From: Sulfurovum sp. TSL1
GTDB taxonomy: Bacteria > Campylobacterota > Campylobacteria > Campylobacterales > Sulfurovaceae
Direction: 5' to 3'
NCBI RefSeq assembly: GCF_019972135.1
Contig: NZ_BPFI01000001.1
Span: forward strand, 293,106-357,105
DNA length: 64,000 nucleotides
In this document: piece after piece, positions 16,956 through 45,979 of the stretch
Position numbering within the stretch: the first letter of the stretch is position 1
Layout of the letters: each line of letters starts with the position of its first letter
Notes under the pieces: generated by a model
Told to the model about the DNA's origin: nothing
Databases searched by the model: none
What the model saw: the letters and a program-made list of their open reading frames with translations, nothing else
Position numbers and translations under genes: made by a program

Positions 16956-17480
16956 TTAATTATCAGTCACTCTAAGCCTGTCATTACGCACTAGGAAACG
17001 TCCGTTGATGGTCAATGCGAGGGACTCTCCGCCAAGTGGCGCGTCTTCAGGCAATCCTCGCTGGGCATGAATATGCAGATGCGGTTCGGAGCTGTTCCCG
17101 GAATTGCCCAGTTCACCCAGCACATCACCAACCACCACGGCCTGCCCCTCGCGAACACCAATAGTGCCCTGACGAAAATGAGCCATCACCACATAGTACT
17201 CACCGCAGTCGATGGCAAGGTAATTGCCAGCCATCTGTTCCCGGTTCATGACAGGCACCCGATTATCAGGCACGCCATCAACGACTTTGGCAACGTGGCC
17301 ACTACAGGGTGCCAATAGCGAGGTTCCGAAACTCACATATCGATTAGGATCCTCTGGCCGAAGACCTCGCACATGAAGCCCCCATGACGTGATTCGAAAA
17401 ATATCGAGTGCGCGGCTCTGGCCATGATAATTATTAAACCGTTCAACATCGGGATTCAGAGTTTTCAGGTGGATGTTCAC
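16956..17480 (-). CDS. M23-family metallopeptidase, C-terminal half of a split gene
   Basis: 174 residues from the first in-frame GTG. It has peptidase M23 (LytM/DD-endopeptidase) features: HGQSRALDIF (H-x(n)-D), CSGHVAKVVDG, VMAHFRQGTI, LGNSGNSSEPHLHIHAQRG (H-x-H zinc ligand). Family-like sequence (FPSGDYLIAHGGSTATVNIH) continues upstream of this GTG in the same frame, back to an amber codon at 17550-17552 that ends the membrane half. The true gene is therefore probably 16956-17912 with a nonsense mutation. GC-rich compared with neighbours. Confidence 0.75.
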   Translation of the reverse strand: MNIHLKTLNPDVERFNNYHGQSRALDIFRITSWGLHVRGLRPEDPNRYVSFGTSLLAPCSGHVAKVVDGVPDNRVPVMNREQMAGNYLAIDCGEYYVVMAHFRQGTIGVREGQAVVVGDVLGELGNSGNSSEPHLHIHAQRGLPEDAPLGGESLALTINGRFLVRNDRLRVTDN

Positions 17481-17549
17481 TGTTGCCGTGGATCCACCGT
17501 GGGCAATCAGATAGTCACCAGAAGGAAACGGTGCGGCGATATCTACAAC

Positions 17550-17912
17550 CTACTCCTCTGGAAGCTGTCTTCCCTGCAGGGCAGTAATTCCCAGATAACA
17601 CCCTAGTAGACCAATCGCGAAGAGTATCAGCAGGATAATACTGTGCAGAACACCGGCGCTCAAAAGTACAGAGCCATCAACAACACCGCGCCACAACTGA
17701 GAACCCACGATAGAAACAAGCAACAGCCAGTAAAGATACGGAGTCCAGTAGAGTGGCATCGCCCAGAGCATCGCGAGTGTCATGCCGAACAGTACCGAGG
17801 CAATCGCCAATACCTGAAGACTCCAGGCTAACCAACCTACTGCGGGCAGGAACGCCAGCCAGGCCAAAAAAAGTAACGGCAATAGAACTTGTACTAAAAG
17901 AGTCAGTATCAT
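17550..17912 (-). CDS. Membrane-spanning N-terminal half of the split M23 peptidase gene
   Basis: 120 residues with about four transmembrane helices (LTLLVQVLLPLLFLAWLAFL; LQVLAIASVLFGMTLAML; PYLYWLLLVSIVGSQLW; SIILLILFAIGLLGCYLGI). It ends LQGRQLPEE followed by TAG, after which the frame stays open into the M23 domain. A single C-to-T change (CAG to TAG) would explain the split. It overlaps the CPBP protease gene by 4 bases, so the two were co-expressed. Confidence 0.65.
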   Translation of the reverse strand: MILTLLVQVLLPLLFLAWLAFLPAVGWLAWSLQVLAIASVLFGMTLAMLWAMPLYWTPYLYWLLLVSIVGSQLWRGVVDGSVLLSAGVLHSIILLILFAIGLLGCYLGITALQGRQLPEE

Positions 17913-18748
17913 GATTGGTCAGGCACACGGTTTTTTGACCAAAAAACAAGCAATAGTAGCGCTAAGACTGCATATCCAGATAGAAGAAATGGATACATGT
18001 CTGACGAAATGCCGAGCATCTCACCGGTAAAGTTCATCATTCCATGGAACACCAAAACCGCAATTATACTTCCTCCGGTGCTGTTATATACGTGAGTAAT
18101 CAACACTGTCGTACAGACTATCATTGGTAGCCACCAATAAAGCTCTGGATTAAAGGTCGTGTTTGCATAGTAACCGGGAAACCAGACGAACGGCGCGTGC
18201 CAGATAGCCCAGACCGTACCGTTGATCAATCCTGCCGTAGTCGGGCCGAGGCGCTGCAGTAGTGTATCCAAGTAGTATCCGCGCAAACCGATCTCTTCGA
18301 TGGCTGGAAAAACAAAGGAAAGGAGCACAAGAAACAAAAGCATGCCCGGATTTGAAAAAAGTGACCAATTCACATCGAGTGGCAAATTGGTGACACCTAT
18401 CAACACTGCGAGACCAGCCATCGCCAGATCGAACGCCAGCCAGAACAAAAGGATTACCAGCCACCAGGAGGTGGGAATGCGCCGCCAATCGATCAGCCGT
18501 TGAGTCAGATCGAGGAGTTGCGCCTTGCCTCCCGTAAACACCGCCAAGCCAAGTCCAGCAATAAGCGGACTGGCGCCGCCGATCAGGAACCACAGAATGT
18601 TCGGAAAGGACCACACCGAAGACTCCGAGAGCAGCAAGGGTGTCCAGAACAGGTAAGCCCAGCCGAGATAGATCAGTGGAAAGGTGAGGATCGGGTGTGC
18701 GAGCACCCATTGACGCAATCCGGGGAATCGTTCGCGCGTATCACTCAT
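17909..18748 (-). CDS. CPBP-family intramembrane metalloprotease
   Basis: 279 residues with several helices and the motifs FPAIEEIGLRGYYLDTLL (E-E-x3-R), NGTVWAIWHAPFVWFPG (W-x3-H) and VLVFHGMMNF. Gene and flanks are clearly richer in G+C than the core genes, and the gene sits in a minus-strand block of apparently acquired genes. Coupled by ATGA to the membrane half of the split M23 gene. Not closely similar to the CPBP protein at 14790. Confidence 0.88.
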   Translation of the reverse strand: MSDTRERFPGLRQWVLAHPILTFPLIYLGWAYLFWTPLLLSESSVWSFPNILWFLIGGASPLIAGLGLAVFTGGKAQLLDLTQRLIDWRRIPTSWWLVILLFWLAFDLAMAGLAVLIGVTNLPLDVNWSLFSNPGMLLFLVLLSFVFPAIEEIGLRGYYLDTLLQRLGPTTAGLINGTVWAIWHAPFVWFPGYYANTTFNPELYWWLPMIVCTTVLITHVYNSTGGSIIAVLVFHGMMNFTGEMLGISSDMYPFLLSGYAVLALLLLVFWSKNRVPDQS

Positions 18749-18899
18749 GGGGAAACTCCACAGCCATTACATCAGCCACAAAAAACAGAAAATAGTGATC
18801 CATGTCAAAGTGGCTACCCACTCCGACGTGCGTGGGCAAGCGGAATCCGCTGAATGACCAAAACTCGGAGGGTATCTCTCCAAACGGTTGCAACTGGTG

Positions 18900-19106
18900 C
18901 TACTTCTCATAATTAGTGTTGCTCCATCGTTCAAAGCGGACCTGTGTTGACTGGCCATCCGGTGCCACCATGACATTGACAGACTGTGACAAATCCTGAT
19001 GTCTTACGGTAAGCCTGGTGCAGTCCGTATCCACCCAGTACCGTGTCCAGCATTTGCTGTTCAAGTGGATTTGCCTTCTTAGGTAGATATTCATCTCTAT
19101 TCTCAC
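18900..19106 (-). CDS. Small hypothetical protein
   Basis: 68 residues from GTG 19106, overlapping the nitroreductase stop by 4 bases; ATG 19094 is an alternative start. No motif recognised (TRYWVDTDCTRLTVRHQDLS, then SVNVMVAPDGQ). It could be the remaining C-terminus of a larger gene. Between 18749 and 18899 I see no convincing gene. Confidence 0.4.
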   Translation of the reverse strand: MRIEMNIYLRRQIHLNSKCWTRYWVDTDCTRLTVRHQDLSQSVNVMVAPDGQSTQVRFERWSNTNYEK

Positions 19107-20074
19107 TCCATCACTTCATCGAGATGGCGACGTGGCGCTGCGTCAATTTCATCTTTCGGAAAACCTAGCCTTAGCAAGATTTGCGGAAACCCCTGTTGGC
19201 TCAATAGGTTTTGAAGTTTGGGGCGTAATGATGCAACTTGGATAGGTTGATTTAAATAAGACGCTTGCAGCCCCTGAGAGTGTGCAGATAGCAATATCTT
19301 TTCCAACGCTTGACCAGCTGCTAACCAATCCGCAACGTTGTCACCAGCGGTGCCTAGAACAGCAAGTATAGGGGATTCATCGGCTAGTTGCTTATCCTTT
19401 GCCCCCACTACTTTGCCTATGTCGAAAGTTCGAACAATGACTTGCGCGATGGGCGCAACGATTCCAGGTACAGTCAGACCGTCACCTCGACGGCGTGGGT
19501 GCATCCATGCAGCGAGCTCTCTTCGCCAACTGGGGTTTGACCACTGAATGGAATCGCCCTCTGCGACAAGCTCTGCCACCTTCTGACGATCGTCTTCCGA
19601 ATCGATGACTTCGAGCCAGGAAGCTTCTTCCGATGCATTCTCACTCAATGAATCTAGAACCTCAGTCGGTATATCTCTCGATGCAAAACGTCTTCGATAG
19701 GTTCGACGCCACTCGATAGATTTAAATAGTCCAGATTCGTCCGTGGATAACGAATTTTCTTTGTTAAATGAGATTACGGCTAGCAGGTCATCATTACCAG
19801 AATCTGGTGTAATGTCGCAAGTCACACCAATCCCTCCATGAGCAGCCGCCACACGCAAATTCATCAGAGCACAGCCACAGCTTATAGTGAGTTCTCTATC
19901 ATCTGGATCGTTAGCAGGAAGGGCTCGCGTCCTATCGGCAAATATGGAGACTGCGCCATCAGTAATCTCAAATCGCCATGGCTGCGTGTTGTGACTCGAG
20001 GGAGCGAGGACGGCATAGCTCAGCAATGATTTTATCTGTTCCGAAGTAACAGACGTTTTCCTTGAATTTATCAT
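19103..20074 (-). CDS. Acg-family nitroreductase-like FMN protein
   Basis: 323 residues of the Acg type (mycobacterial Rv2032-like tandem nitroreductase fold): LLSYAVLAPSSHNTQPWRFE is the FMN-binding start, followed by ISCGCALMNLRVAAAHGG, WRRTYRRRF and WLAAGQALEKILLSAHSQGL. These proteins bind FMN but often lack classical nitroreductase activity and relate to stress or dormancy. GC-rich, foreign-looking codon use. Strong AAAGGAG precedes ATG 20074. Confidence 0.88.
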   Translation of the reverse strand: MINSRKTSVTSEQIKSLLSYAVLAPSSHNTQPWRFEITDGAVSIFADRTRALPANDPDDRELTISCGCALMNLRVAAAHGGIGVTCDITPDSGNDDLLAVISFNKENSLSTDESGLFKSIEWRRTYRRRFASRDIPTEVLDSLSENASEEASWLEVIDSEDDRQKVAELVAEGDSIQWSNPSWRRELAAWMHPRRRGDGLTVPGIVAPIAQVIVRTFDIGKVVGAKDKQLADESPILAVLGTAGDNVADWLAAGQALEKILLSAHSQGLQASYLNQPIQVASLRPKLQNLLSQQGFPQILLRLGFPKDEIDAAPRRHLDEVME

Positions 20075-20201
20075 GGTTTCTCCTTTTAGCTAAAACACCT
20101 AGCGTCTGAGTTCACTGGTGTTTAATACGATGGCCGTTTTTGAGATAGCAAAAATGGGCAGCGGCTCAAACGTCCTGTACAACGATTTCTTAGCCTTTTG
20201 C

Positions 20202-20588
20202 TCATTGCTGCATCCAAAAGACAATACTAGGACTCAAAAAAAGTAACAGCATACCTACACCAAGTAAATTACCCTTAAGGGGATTAAAATCTTCGATGAT
20301 TTTACTCCACTTAAATTTGAATACGTACCTCCCAAAATAGATGTCTAGGCCTAACATAATCACTAACCAAACAAAGCCTATTTTATAACAGTCAAAATAA
20401 TTGACGGGAGAAACCCATGGCAAAGTCAGCCAAGAAATAGCGTATATTATTGTTATGCCTGAAAAAAAACTGATCTTTTTCGCGCGTTTTTTACCATATA
20501 AACGATGCAAAACTCGTACTCTGATATTGCCATTTATAACTTCACCAAAGGCAAGTAGCACGCCAACTACAAGAATTTTCAATAACAC
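20202..20588 (-). CDS. Small four-helix membrane protein, unknown
   Basis: 128 residues from GTG 20588 with four hydrophobic helices (LKILVVGVLLAFGEVI; FFSGITIIYAISWLTLP; YKIGFVWLVIMLGLDIYF; LLGVGMLLLFLSPSIVFW). No family recognised. The start lies 17 bases after a GTTAGGC half-site on the same strand, like cassette genes further on. Confidence 0.6.
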   Translation of the reverse strand: MLLKILVVGVLLAFGEVINGNIRVRVLHRLYGKKRAKKISFFSGITIIYAISWLTLPWVSPVNYFDCYKIGFVWLVIMLGLDIYFGRYVFKFKWSKIIEDFNPLKGNLLGVGMLLLFLSPSIVFWMQQ

Positions 20589-20604
20589 TATGATTGCCTC
20601 ATCA

Positions 20605-20638
20605 GCCTAACTATTTATTAGGGGAACAAAGTGTCCCC
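20605..20638 (-). repeat. attC-like half-site (GTTAGGC) with adjoining palindrome
   Basis: On the minus strand TAATAAATAGTTAGGC ends 17 bases before the 20588 start. The same 16 bases occur at 42173-42188 before another short ORF. The adjoining 18 bases (20621-20638) are a near-palindrome, GGGGAACAAAGTGTCCCC. GTTAGGC fits the integron R' consensus GTTRRRY, but no matching partner half-site is evident. Confidence 0.4.
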
Positions 20639-20769
20639 TCTGCACAGATACATCGTATTAGTAGTATACAACAAATATCTAGCTATTTTAAACATTTCAT
20701 TAAAAATGTGAAAAATTGATATATTTTATGATTTTCACATCACTATTAATAAAATGATAACTGTCGCTA

Positions 20770-20880
20770 ATGACCTTTTAGTCCGAAATACACAAATAGT
20801 CGGACAAAGTGTTCCCCTATTTATCCATATCAGGCAATAGAGAACATATTGTCCTCTATTTTTTTGGGAGGCATCAGTGT
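20770..20880 (+). repeat. About 110-bp repeated leader element, copy 1
   Basis: CCTTTTAGTCCGA, GGACAAAGTGTTC, GGCAATAGAGAACATATTG, TCCTCTATTTTTTT and a GGGAGG box occur in the same order as in 45810-45922. It contains two partial palindromes resembling operators and ends in a ribosome-binding-like sequence, but no long ORF follows; the nearest plus-strand gene starts at 21131. The 20589-21130 gap otherwise holds only the half-site and hairpin listed separately. Confidence 0.55.
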
Positions 20881-20922
20881 CAAGATGAGTTGTACATCTG
20901 CTTATGTAATTACTTAAAAAAT

Positions 20923-42080: not shown

Positions 42081-42167
42081 TTAGCGGACACTTATTGGAA
42101 TGCCAACAATACCTAGATACTTTATCCAGTCTGGATAGAAAACATCAATATATTCTTTATCTTCCAT
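42081..42167 (-). CDS. 28-residue ORF in a cassette-like position
   Basis: ATG 42167 follows the GTTAGGC half-site by six bases. The ORF reads MEDKEYIDVFYPDWIKYLGI plus eight residues, and its TAA sits in CGCTAACAA, which looks like the start of an attC site. Short, so coding status is uncertain; it could be a remnant of a longer cassette gene. Confidence 0.35.
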   Translation of the reverse strand: MEDKEYIDVFYPDWIKYLGIVGIPISVR

Positions 42168-42172
42168 ATGTT

Positions 42173-42188
42173 GCCTAACTATTTATTA
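42173..42188 (-). repeat. attC-like R' half-site (GTTAGGC)
   Basis: Minus-strand TAATAAATAGTTAGGC fits GTTRRRY and is identical over 16 bases to 20605-20620. It overlaps the stop codon of the upstream GNAT gene, as attC sites often do. Confidence 0.5.
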
Positions 42189-42651
42189 GAGGAATATGCT
42201 TTTCCATTGAGAAATTCACTAATGATACACCTTTTCTTTGTACCTCATTTTTCTTAACCACAGAGAATCCACGGTGTTTGAAGAATGGTTTGGCAATGAG
42301 CGATGCTTCAACGTATAAACGCTTGAGATCTCTGGTTCTTGCTTCCGTAAGCAAATGCTCATACAGGGTAGATGCGACACCCTTTCCCTGAAAATCCGGA
42401 TGCGTATAAGTACAGTCAATATGACCATCCGTATCCAGCTCCATAAAACCGACAACTTGATCATCAATAATCGCTATAAACGGTCTTTTCTCATGTAAGC
42501 GTTTAGCCCACTGTTTATAATTAGGCGGTGTTGGTGCCCATGCTTCTTTTTGTTCTGCTGTATATACCGAAGGATCAATCGCATGAACAGACTGATGAAA
42601 CAAGTCCGCAATCTCCCTAGCCCTTTCTGCAGAATATATTTGTATATCCAT
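42175..42651 (-). CDS. GNAT-family N-acetyltransferase
   Basis: 158 residues: IIDDQVVGFMELDTDGHIDC, TYTHPDFQGKGVASTLYEHL (acetyl-CoA loop Q-G-K-G-V-A), LYVEASLIAKPFFKHRGFSV. It resembles the YafP/ElaA-like group. Starts six bases after a GTTAGGA half-site and ends in another half-site, so it occupies a full cassette position. Confidence 0.88.
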   Translation of the reverse strand: MDIQIYSAERAREIADLFHQSVHAIDPSVYTAEQKEAWAPTPPNYKQWAKRLHEKRPFIAIIDDQVVGFMELDTDGHIDCTYTHPDFQGKGVASTLYEHLLTEARTRDLKRLYVEASLIAKPFFKHRGFSVVKKNEVQRKGVSLVNFSMEKHIPLINS

Positions 42652-42656
42652 AGTAA

Positions 42657-42690
42657 TCCTAACGTTTAAAATGACCTGTGGTTTTTAGAC
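42657..42690 (-). repeat. Short attC-like site before the GNAT gene
   Basis: On the minus strand it runs from GTCTAA (holding the stop of the GNAT fragment) to TTAAACGTTAGGA, which is nearly the same end as the clearer site at 43660 (TTAAACGTTAGAT). Only about 34 bases, so a shrunken or degenerate copy. Confidence 0.45.
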
Positions 42691-42786
42691 ATTTTCAAAC
42701 TTCTTCTGAAAATGCAGGGCAATGACTTCATAGCCCTCTTTTTCCCAAAATCTGTGAGCTTCTTTATTGTTTATATAGCAGTTTTC
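42685..42786 (-). pseudogene. C-terminal fragment of a GNAT acetyltransferase
   Basis: Reads ENCYINNKEAHRFWEKEGYE then VIALHFQKKFENV, the usual N-x-x-A-x-x-F-x-x-x-x-G-F/Y ending of GNAT proteins. Upstream coding is cut exactly at a REP palindrome (42786), so the mobile REP unit has replaced or displaced the 5' part. Confidence 0.7.
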
Positions 42787-42979
42787 TCGTTCCCATGTTG
42801 TACGTGGGAACGCATACTGACAGTTATTGTAGCGGTTTTCAACTTGCTGGTTTATTGACGGTTTGATATGCGTTCCATATCGGGAGGTATGGAACGAGTT
42901 AAAGTTGGTCATTTAGATATTGAGTGGTTTTGGTAGTTTATGCTCTCGTATGCATTCCCACGGAAACCGTGGGAACGAG
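42786..42979 (+). mobile_element. Non-autonomous REP/RAYT remnant
   Basis: Contains three REP palindromes: 42786-42817, 42868-42898 and 42949-42979. Between the last two is TTAGATATTGAGTGGTTTTG with GTAGTTTATGCTCTCG, matching the 3' end of the RAYT gene and its downstream REP (45728-45793). It therefore looks like an internally deleted copy of the 45101-45793 unit. Confidence 0.8.
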
Positions 42980-43002
42980 TTAAATAGTTTGATAATAGTA
43001 CA

Positions 43003-43647
43003 TTAGTTTCCTACTTTTGGAATATAAACTTGAGACATTATTTTAATATCTTGCTCTTCATCAGAGTCAACTTGAACATCTAGGATTTCTTTCATAAAAG
43101 ATATACAAAGTTTAATACCTTCTTTTTCAGAAACTATATCTTTTAAAAATATTTTATTGTCATGGTATTCTTCAGGAAAATTAATAGATATATGAGTCAT
43201 TAGTTTTTTACTTTCTTCCCATATTCTATACTTTATAGTTCCTTTATCATCAATTTTGATTTTACTACTTTTTTCCAAAAATTTATGAATTGTTCCTGCT
43301 TTATTCCATGTAGCTAAATCCTTAGTAATATATACATCATTCCAATTATCAAATACTGGAAAATGTAAAAGTAAATTTCTTATAAAACTAAAAAGATCAC
43401 TAATAATTATTCCTTCAATCGGCGGTTTAGTCTTTTTTATTAGTTCAATATGATATTTAATTGGTTCATATCCTAAAAGTTCTTTATATATTGAAAAAAT
43501 TTCTCGTATTTTATAAAATCTATATGCTGATTTGTTTAAAAAAAAATCATTAATAGATAATTCTTCATATAAATCATAAAACCTATTATAAAATAAGTCT
43601 AAAGCAATTCTTTCTTTTTCATTTGGTTTAATATTTTGATGTTTCAT
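43003..43647 (-). CDS. Hypothetical cassette-borne protein
   Basis: 214 residues, AT-rich, charged, mostly alpha-helical in appearance (NEKERIALDLFYNRFYDLYE; IIISDLFSFIRNLLLHFPVF; KDIVSEKEGIKLCISFMKEI). No motif recognised, no signal peptide. The start lies 13 bases after a well-formed attC-like site, and the REP remnant abuts its 3' side where the next attC would be expected. Confidence 0.65.
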   Translation of the reverse strand: MKHQNIKPNEKERIALDLFYNRFYDLYEELSINDFFLNKSAYRFYKIREIFSIYKELLGYEPIKYHIELIKKTKPPIEGIIISDLFSFIRNLLLHFPVFDNWNDVYITKDLATWNKAGTIHKFLEKSSKIKIDDKGTIKYRIWEESKKLMTHISINFPEEYHDNKIFLKDIVSEKEGIKLCISFMKEILDVQVDSDEEQDIKIMSQVYIPKVGN

Positions 43648-43659
43648 GTTTGCCTAGTA

Positions 43660-43728
43660 ATCTAACGTTTAACTTGAGGAATATTTGAGCCATAGCGTCA
43701 AATATTCCTCTCCAATGTGTTGTTATAC
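43660..43728 (-). repeat. attC-like recombination site
   Basis: 69 bases read on the minus strand: GTATAAC start (includes the TAA stop of the GIY-YIG gene), a 13-bp stem GAGGAATATTTGA/TCAAATATTCCTC around a 9-base loop, flanking partly paired segments, and GTTAGAT end matching GTTRRRY. Length, outer half-sites, internal imperfect palindrome and position at a gene 3' end all fit an integron attC. Confidence 0.7.
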
Positions 43729-44151
43729 ACTTTTCACCCAAAAATATTGAGTCCCTTTTAGCAATCTTGTTGTTGGTTTATTTATTAGTGTTTTTCTCCA
43801 CCTTAAAATCAAATATTCTTCAATTTCTGAACGTCCTAAATCTATTGAGATGTATGACAATTTATAGTTAGTATTCATATATCTTCTTAGTTCTTCTAAG
43901 CTTGTTGCTTCTATTTTTTTATCTATTTTTTTTGTAAATGCATGATTTATTGGTCTCATTAAATCAGACATTCTACTTTTTAATCCAGATGTTTCACCAA
44001 CATATATAGGCTTTTCATTCTCCCATATAACGTATACTCCACTGTAATCTGGAAATATATTTTTCCAATTATTTTGAAACAATACATATCTTTGTGATGA
44101 ACTTAATCTTTTTTCATAATCAAATAATATATTTTGTATGTTTGTATTCAA
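43723..44151 (-). CDS. GIY-YIG domain protein
   Basis: 142 residues with SGVYVIWENEKPIYVGETSG (GIY-YIG core as G-V-Y and Y-V-G) followed by LKSRMSDLMR with the conserved Arg, and a late Glu in RSEIEEYLILRWRKTLINKP. Could be a small nuclease. It is bounded by attC-like sites on both sides, making it one cassette. Confidence 0.8.
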   Translation of the reverse strand: MNTNIQNILFDYEKRLSSSQRYVLFQNNWKNIFPDYSGVYVIWENEKPIYVGETSGLKSRMSDLMRPINHAFTKKIDKKIEATSLEELRRYMNTNYKLSYISIDLGRSEIEEYLILRWRKTLINKPTTRLLKGTQYFWVKSV

Positions 44152-44172
44152 TTGTATCCTTGGTGTATAAGG

Positions 44173-44233
44173 TTCTAATCAAGAAATAGTTTCGCCGTAG
44201 GGGAAACTATTTCTCTTCGATGTTTTGTTATAC
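44173..44233 (-). repeat. attC-like recombination site
   Basis: 61 bases, minus strand: GTATAAC start with the stop of the upstream gene inside it, stem GAAATAGTTTC/GAAACTATTTC, end ATTAGAA. The first 7 bases equal those of the site at 43660; the last half-site has G replaced by A, so it may be inactive as a recombination point. Confidence 0.6.
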
Positions 44234-45190
44234 ATTTTTAAATTCTCTTAATATTGTTTCTGTTTTTTCTTGATTAACATTGAAAAAGTCATAGGTACCG
44301 TCGATTATGCTCTTAAAACAGACATTTAATGAAAATATTAATTTTGTGTTTTCATCGAATGTAAATGATATTTTTTCTCCTTGACGAAATATTTTTGTTT
44401 CATCAATGAAATTAATATTTGTAGTTTGTCTTCCCTTTATATATGAAGATGGTGTTATTTCACCATTAGGCGAGTCAATTCTTGGATATCTAAATTTAAT
44501 AGACATATAATTTTTTGACGGCTCACAATCTCTTTTAGATACTATTCCCGCTCTATGCTCTAAACAATTACGTACTTTATTAATTTGAGAAAGAGTATCT
44601 AGTGATGCAGATAAGCTCAAATCATCTGTAATTATGTTTAGTTTCTCAGGAAATTTCTTACTATGGAATTTTGAACATAAAGTTTCAATATGTTTCTCGA
44701 ACTCTAATATTGTATCTCCTTTTTTACATTCTTTTAAAGAGATATATATCTTATATGCTAATTCAATATGTTCGTGTATTATTTTGACCAATTGATGATA
44801 ATTCAATAAATCAACTTCCATTTTAACGTCTGAATATATTTCTGAAAATTTTCTCAACTCAAGAGTTCTTAGGGAATAAATATATTCCAATTGTAGAGCT
44901 TTAGAATAATCACTTTCTGCTAATTGATTGATGGCTAGATATGTAAATTTATAATTTTGAAACCATTGTTCCATTTTTGAATTTAAGGTATTGGCCAACA
45001 AAAGTGGAGTAGCTCTAACTTGACCATATGAGTCAGTGGAAACTTGATAACTTATGGGAACATGATTAATCGTATATCCTTTGTATAACGGTTGAGTTTT
45101 CTCGTTCCCACGTTTTACGTGGGAATGCATACCGACATCAGAGATTCTATGACAATTTGACATATTTTTAAACTCACCTATGTTGATCAA
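44228..45190 (-). CDS. Hypothetical cassette-borne protein; N-terminal part crosses a REP
   Basis: Up to 320 residues. A REP palindrome (45101-45132) lies inside the first 30 codons (VGMHSHVKRGNEKTQPL), so the native start is likely lost or lies further in, for example the Met before EQWFQNYKFTYLAINQL. The remainder is helical, rich in Leu, Lys and Glu (LEYIYSLRTLELRKFSEIYS; DTLSQINKVRNCLEHRAGIV). NKVRNCLEHR resembles HEPN/RiboL-PSP-type R-x4-6-H motifs, a weak hint only. Confidence 0.55.
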   Translation of the reverse strand: MINIGEFKNMSNCHRISDVGMHSHVKRGNEKTQPLYKGYTINHVPISYQVSTDSYGQVRATPLLLANTLNSKMEQWFQNYKFTYLAINQLAESDYSKALQLEYIYSLRTLELRKFSEIYSDVKMEVDLLNYHQLVKIIHEHIELAYKIYISLKECKKGDTILEFEKHIETLCSKFHSKKFPEKLNIITDDLSLSASLDTLSQINKVRNCLEHRAGIVSKRDCEPSKNYMSIKFRYPRIDSPNGEITPSSYIKGRQTTNINFIDETKIFRQGEKISFTFDENTKLIFSLNVCFKSIIDGTYDFFNVNQEKTETILREFKNV

Positions 45191-45793
45191 ATATAATACA
45201 GAAAAAAGATAAAAATATGGGAAGAAGTAGATATAAAATATATGAACCTACACATCCACATTTTATTACTTGTACGGTATTGAACTGGATACCTTTGTTT
45301 ACAAGAAAAGATAGTGTTGAAATACTTCTTGAAAGCTTTAGATACCTTCAGGAAAAAGATAATTTCAAACTCTACGCTTATGTCATACTTGAAAATCATA
45401 TCCATATCTTAGCCCAAAGTGATGACATAGGTAAAAGTATGGCAAAATTTAAAACACATACTGCAAAATCTCTTATAAGATTACTTCAAAATGAAAATGT
45501 TAAAACCATACTGGAACAATTAATATTTTACAAAAAAGCACATAAATCAGATCGAGAATATCAATTATGGCAAGAAGGTATCCAGCCTAAACTTATGCAA
45601 AGTGATGCGATGATGATCTCTAAAATTAAATACATTCATGACAATCCTGTCAAAAGAGGATATGTAGATGAAGCCAAACATTGGCGATATAGTTCTGCCA
45701 GAGATTATGAAGGGGAAGTTGGTCTTTTAGATATTGAGCGGTTTTGGTAGTTTAAGCTCTCGTATGCATTCCCACGGAAACCGTGGGAACGAG
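45101..45793 (+). mobile_element. RAYT unit bounded by inverted REP palindromes
   Basis: REP at 45101-45132 (CTCGTTCCCACG-CGTGGGAATGCATAC) and inverted REP at 45763-45793 (TATGCATTCCCACGG-CCGTGGGAACGAG) flank the transposase gene, the classic REP-RAYT arrangement. It is inserted at the 5' end of the minus-strand gene at 44228. Confidence 0.85.
45217..45750 (+). CDS. REP-associated tyrosine transposase (RAYT)
   Basis: 177 residues, Y1/HUH transposase of the IS200-like family: PTHPHFITCTVLNWIPLF, YAYVILENHIHILAQ (H-x-H metal site, HIH), KYIHDNPVKRGYVDEAKHWR and YSSARDYEG. The catalytic Tyr is expected in the EYQLWQEG or IHDNP region, not assigned. RAYTs mobilise or copy REP palindromes. Looks complete. 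Confidence 0.92.
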   Translation: MGRSRYKIYEPTHPHFITCTVLNWIPLFTRKDSVEILLESFRYLQEKDNFKLYAYVILENHIHILAQSDDIGKSMAKFKTHTAKSLIRLLQNENVKTILEQLIFYKKAHKSDREYQLWQEGIQPKLMQSDAMMISKIKYIHDNPVKRGYVDEAKHWRYSSARDYEGEVGLLDIERFW

Positions 45794-45809
45794 GAATGAT
45801 AAGAATTTC

Positions 45810-45922
45810 TTATGTCCTTTAGTAGGATATAGGTCGATATTTGGACAAAGTGTTCTTCTATTTGTTAATTTCTGGCAATAAAGGACATTATGTCCTGCTA
45901 TTTTTTAGGAGATACATATGGA
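45810..45922 (+). repeat. About 110-bp repeated leader element, copy 2
   Basis: GTCCTTTAGTAGGATATA, GGACAAAGTGTTC, GGCAATAAAGGACATTATG, TCCTGCTATTTTTT and AGGAG align with 20770-20880. Here the ribosome-binding-like AGGAG is followed by an ATG (45918) but the frame closes after nine codons. The element has palindromic blocks (AGGACATTATGTCCT) suggestive of an operator. Confidence 0.55.
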
Positions 45923-45979
45923 AATCAAAACTGGTATCCACAACTAGATATCATTCTTAGAAAAGACGTGTTAAACAAT

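Follow-up and report, generated by a model that had tools for sequence, protein, structure and literature searches.

Campylobacterota are listed among the integron-bearing phyla, and three origins have been proposed for CALINs, namely off-target insertion, loss of the integrase and rearrangement (PMC8618304). CALINs have been tabulated for Sulfurovum sp. NBC37-1, and an In0 together with a CALIN for Sulfurimonas autotrophica (PMC10295459); IntegronFinder 2 calls CALINs from two attC sites upward (PMC9024848). Cassettes of the delta-attI type, cassettes with a truncated attC and cassettes whose attC is interrupted by insertion sequences are described classes of unusual cassettes (PMC12901181).

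The array described here lies in the window, the 64-kb stretch of the Sulfurovum sp. TSL1 genome that was analysed, at C1:293106-357105 (Table 1). Like a CALIN, it has at least two co-oriented attC sites and cassettes with no intI gene nearby; unlike one, it retains an intI leader, an intI stub and half of an attI, in which an origin by integrase loss is readable. The first-pass annotation had called it a CALIN-type array. The working definition indeed applies, but the array appears to be the relic of a complete integron. It shares the leader, the attI core, the 67-69 nt attC family and cassettes on the strand opposite to intI with the sedentary chromosomal integron of a genome of the same genus (G045, locus L035). 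It differs from that integron in that only ~60 nt of intI are left, attI and Pc are displaced by a REP transposase, and attC sites are truncated or interrupted. Like the unusual cassettes of mobile integrons (PMC12901181), it has a GNAT gene with part of an attI, one truncated attC and one attC replaced by an insertion. Unlike them, it is chromosomal, belongs to a non-clinical bacterium and was invaded by REP transposases. We put the probability that the array is a decayed sedentary chromosomal integron at about 0.9, because it combines two attC sites, a cassette shared with another array from the crossover onward, a leader and stub, half of an attI and two REP elements, and because a sister genome has no array. 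The leader and stub (45797-45978), both REP-transposase elements and the second platform at 20600-20880 (platform A) were not in the first-pass annotation.

Table 1. Positions of the integron-related features in the window
Feature	Position	Strand	Support or remark
attI core of platform A (second attI core)	20609-20628	-	exact match; promoter-like region upstream, 128-aa ORF (20202-20588, -) downstream
intI leader of platform A	20776-20877	+	79% over 73 nt to the other leader, E 7.6e-11; alignment
5' end of truncated cassette (TTAGGC..ATG, 28-aa ORF)	42098-42174	-	joins chromosome at ~42097; comparison with G028
GNAT acetyltransferase cassette	42175-42651	-	PF13673, E 4e-21; last residues PLINS, from the attI core
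Left half of attI core, TATTCCTCTAATAAATAG|TT, at GNAT 3' end (putative delta-attI)	42177-42196	-	one mismatch to core
Putative truncated attC (R''-like GTCTAAA, L' TTTAAAC, R' GTTAGGA)	42657-42690	-	central stem missing; by sequence
3' fragment of cassette gene	42685-42779	-	reading of the translation
Internally deleted copy of REP element	about 42780-42980		repeats D1, D2; alignment
214-aa cassette gene, no assigned family	43003-43647	-	93% identity to L025 relative
attC site 2, complete	43660-43728	-	R2 44.3 bits
GIY-YIG cassette gene	43723-44151	-	PF01541, E 2.6e-6
attC site 1	44165-44233	-	R2 43.9 bits; crossover G replaced by C
First remaining cassette gene	44228-45088	-	formal ORF start at 45190, within the REP element
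Putative R'/L' remnant of attC or attI, CTCAACCGTTATAC	45083-45096	-	beside transposase element; by sequence
REP-associated tyrosine transposase element	45095-45796		transposase 45217-45750 (+); REP palindromes at both ends
intI leader / promoter region	45797-45917	+	84% over 109 nt to intact integron of G045; alignment
intI stub, first ~60 nt of integron-integrase gene, in-frame stop	45918-45978 (end approximate)	+	alignment with intI starts of G045, G020, G050 and G024

attC sites and the cassettes between them

The 44165 site escaped scans by regular expressions and folding, and attC sites were then searched for with covariance models instead. Model R1 was built from six attC sites of G045 and G071, and model R2 from 43 attC sites found in the genus outside the TSL1 genome; alignment A2 was left out because sites in it were duplicated on opposite strands. 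The 43 training sites are taken as true attC because they are positioned behind intI and attI in the G045 integron. That integron is intact and served as the template: intI (-) and its leader are followed by the attI core TTCCTCTAATAAATAG|TTGTATAC and then by cassettes split by four attC sites of 67-68 nt. Applied to the 2.35 Mb TSL1 genome (6 contigs), R2 returned exactly two matches at E<=1, 43660-43728 (E 6.1e-7) and 44165-44233 (E 7.5e-7; both E-values per whole genome), which R1 scored at 30.8 and 34.2 bits. R2 found zero attC matches in the sister species G028, and an Rfam scan of the window gave nothing above gathering scores. The two matches lie 505 nt apart on the same strand, co-oriented with the cassette genes, and in both the model recognises the R''...L''...stem...L'...R' architecture. 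The R' box of the 43660 site, GTTAGAT, has the crossover core G|TT, and that of the 44165 site, CTTATAC, carries a C at the crossover position where a G is expected. Compensatory change in the 43-site family affected 68 cells, with both sides altered; shuffles gave 29.6 and slid controls no more than 22. This is supporting evidence only, since the family was aligned to its own model and this favours the structure. At the level of sequence, 43660-43728 and 44165-44233 are confirmed as attC sites.

The first-pass annotation had listed four half-sites and two complete sites, and had made its case depend on a covariance match at 43660-43728. That match was found, with a model from sites of the same genus. 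Both complete sites are real, although the second runs from 44165 rather than from 44173. The half-sites at 43660 and 44173 belong to these attC sites by both models, whereas those at 42657 and 42173 had no covariance-model match: the latter is an attI core, and the former is probably a truncated attC (42657-42690), which lacks the stem and shares repeat D10 with the 43660 site. The common orientation of genes and attC sites and the GNAT and GIY-YIG assignments were borne out. That two of the four claimed half-sites are not attC, that G+C falls to 25-27% at 43-45 kb and that real REP palindromes occur in the region would all agree with hairpins that are terminators or REP-type palindromes and GTTRRRY boxes that arose by chance in AT-rich DNA. 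We find this reading hardly credible: the two sites are the sole matches of an independent attC model in the whole genome, the sister genome has none, and the identity of a shared cassette begins at the crossover.

The shared cassette is the 214-aa gene, whose relative is a cassette in a Campylobacterales MAG (locus L025). Identity between the two starts at CG|TTAGATTACTAGG (CG|TTAGATT, with the crossover at G|TT), upstream of which the sequences differ. It stops ~30 nt past the 214-aa stop, where an attC follows in L025 and a REP element in the window. Mobility of cassettes between arrays is shown for this one cassette only, and the viral contigs searched held nothing similar to it. Together with the absence of the array from G028, the shared cassette bears out the gain or loss of cassettes at the borders that the first-pass annotation had expected. 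L025 itself (700-1834) is an array with long attC sites of ~134 nt, some of which are separated by little coding sequence. Among the other genomes of the genus, the GIY-YIG gene is without a homologue and the GNAT gene without a close one. The product of the first remaining cassette gene had no match in Pfam, NCBIfam or PADLOC, and PADLOC recognised none of the cassette proteins as a defence protein. The fragment at 42685-42779 matches no family and ends in residues that resemble a GNAT C-terminus.

Remains of the integrase and the attI site

A TIGR02249 search of the genome found no intI over the cut-off. The best match reached 61 bits at most, and sub-cut-off matches of the same sort occur in all control genomes. 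The absence of an integrase, claimed for the window, extends to the whole genome: the only intI sequence at the array is the stub with its in-frame stop, and there is no functional gene elsewhere. Leader and stub together align with the leader and intI start of G020 (blastn, 75% over 189 nt, E 2e-26), and the end of the stub is the start of the 3' flank of FmdE. Since a leader and ~60 nt of intI stand beside the array, it appears to be integrase-less by loss and not by nature. A CALIN could also form off-target, if an IntI acting in trans put cassettes at a secondary attG site and a full integron never existed here. Insertion at attG is a known IntI reaction (PMC12901181), and the genome has no intI over the cut-off. 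However, off-target insertion brings neither an intI leader and start beside the array nor half of an attI inside it, and we judge such an origin very improbable.

Within the leader (window 45797-45917; L035 9435-9560), GGACAAAGTGTTCCTCTA and a copy in inverted orientation resemble parts of attI and are possibly integrase-binding repeats. An rpiB-like gene adjoins intI in G045 (L035 8004-8423) and in G020 (locus L029, 4486-4905), a possible conserved location for the integron.

The attI core TGTTCCYCTAATAAATAG|TT is conserved beside intI across the genus. In the TSL1 genome it occurs exactly at 20609-20628, with one mismatch at 42177-42196 and with two mismatches at C1:358794, outside the window; with three mismatches, matches are no commoner than in the control, and a first-order Markov simulation expects none by chance in 64 kb. 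An attI next to intI with an outward-facing Pc is not present at the array; only half of an attI is, displaced to the far end. There, the core lies directly 3' of the GNAT gene. Homology of the GNAT to known acetyltransferases stops at residue 153 of 158, so the last five residues come from attI. Where an attC would stand, the gene has 18-20 nt of the attI core, as in cassettes of the delta-attI type, and we assign it to that type; its excision by IntI is predicted. The array thereby appears to hold all three unusual kinds of cassettes, with delta-attI, truncated attC and insertion-interrupted attC; direct support from sequence, over and above reading by eye, exists only for the first.

The position of this attI half, at the far end of the array and away from the leader, speaks against the decayed integron in its simplest form; among the matches listed, no other of the 67 orphan attI cores in the genus has an attC upstream. 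The delta-attI reading explains it. It would also be explained if two platforms had been fused by a deletion, the attI half coming from a second integron behind the first array and the GNAT being joined to it by ordinary deletion and not by IntI. Within a span of 45 kb, the TSL1 genome contains three attI-like cores and no fewer than two intI leaders, and several genomes of the genus carry multiple attI sites. The junction falls right at the end of the GNAT frame, however, and just the attI core is kept, as in delta-attI cassettes. A fusion is an alternative worth keeping in mind, though we think it less likely than not.

Insertions have further altered the array. The REP-associated transposase (NF047646, 100.4 bits; cut-off 80), with inverted repeats I1 and I2, belongs to an element that fills the space between the intI leader and the first cassette. 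Beside it, 45083-45096 has the same form as the R' of the L025 sites and may be what is left of an attC or attI. The internally deleted copy lies between the 214-aa gene and the fragment of another gene, where it replaces the attC of the 214-aa cassette.

The surroundings of the array are conserved in G028, at 87-93% identity on either side, and 42098-45978 is wholly missing. The array does not begin at 42081, the edge originally given: this is ordinary chromosome, and the view of it as an R'' remnant was rejected since homologous sequence is present in G028 without an array. The genes for the FAA hydrolase, a 69-aa protein and FmdE stand in another order in G028, so there was a rearrangement beyond simple insertion, which also speaks against the decayed integron as the full account.

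For a decayed integron, we propose the following course. An IntI once encoded here would have placed promoterless genes at attI through recombination of attI with attC, the latter as a folded bottom strand. Later, a deletion on the FmdE side would have removed intI beyond about codon 20. The attI/Pc region and the attC that followed the 214-aa gene may have been lost through the insertion of a REP transposase and of a second, internally deleted one. An irregular attI/attC crossover may have given the GNAT its delta-attI tail in place of an attC. The array would now be immobile by its own means, and an IntI provided in trans could still use the intact attC.

Platform A and orphan attI cores in the genus

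Platform A (20600-20880; region 20200-20900) keeps its attI and leader, has no intI and is better preserved than the half at 42177. The 128-aa ORF is its first cassette-like gene, and the candidate attC after it (20088-20200) had no model match. Beyond this ORF, the stretch at ~17000-20100 has about 50% G+C compared with ~40% around it, carries genes for a nitroreductase and an Rce1-like membrane protease (-), and was probably acquired. At the third attI-like core (C1:358794 onward; locus L081, 6794-7269), ~30 nt of promoter-like similarity are present, and a DUF2202 gene (PF09968) follows the core directly.

A scan of 78 genomes of the genus with TRTTCCYYKAATAAATAGTT, one mismatch allowed, returned 86 attI cores in 43 genomes, and none with the reversed pattern as control. 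An intI above the curated cut-off was found in 20 of the 78 genomes; many of the 78 are fragmented MAGs, in which an intI may be missed. With integrons and CALINs already published from Campylobacterota and intI this common in the genus, the array was overstated as notable for the phylum. An intI hit stands no more than 1.5 kb from 18 of the cores; of the others, one sits at the edge of a contig and 67 are orphans. Nineteen genomes have an attI without an intI-specific hit. When the short attC type is counted among the attC matches listed, at least 23 of the 67 orphans are followed on the same strand, within 7 kb, by a model attC; for one, that of the window, the attC lies upstream. This asymmetry supports the view that the orphans are true attI sites. 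Some have a full leader and others consist of just ~70-80 nt, a promoter-like sequence plus attI; several of the latter end at the crossover, in front of a cassette-like gene. G008 has nine attI cores, and G001 has three orphans within 7 kb (locus L130). Linked and orphan cores often differ in subtype (e.g. in G012, G045 and G074).

Integron devices are widespread in the genus and often decayed. The excess of attI over intI is the less expected result, and we found no description of orphan attI modules in the open-licence literature. The platforms might persist mainly as integrase-less Pc-attI modules that are not mere debris, either kept as a promoter and a landing site for an IntI that acts in trans or spreading themselves, an idea that we regard as doubtful.

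Our study describes a system of a known kind, with unusually legible traces of integrase loss. The intI stub and the attI half point to integrase loss as the origin of this CALIN, with rearrangement on top. A genus of Campylobacterota, a phylum whose integrons are listed but hardly described in the literature we found, now has its own attC model and attI motif. Because the attI core is very specific, the same test is possible genus-wide, and the origin of CALINs becomes countable.
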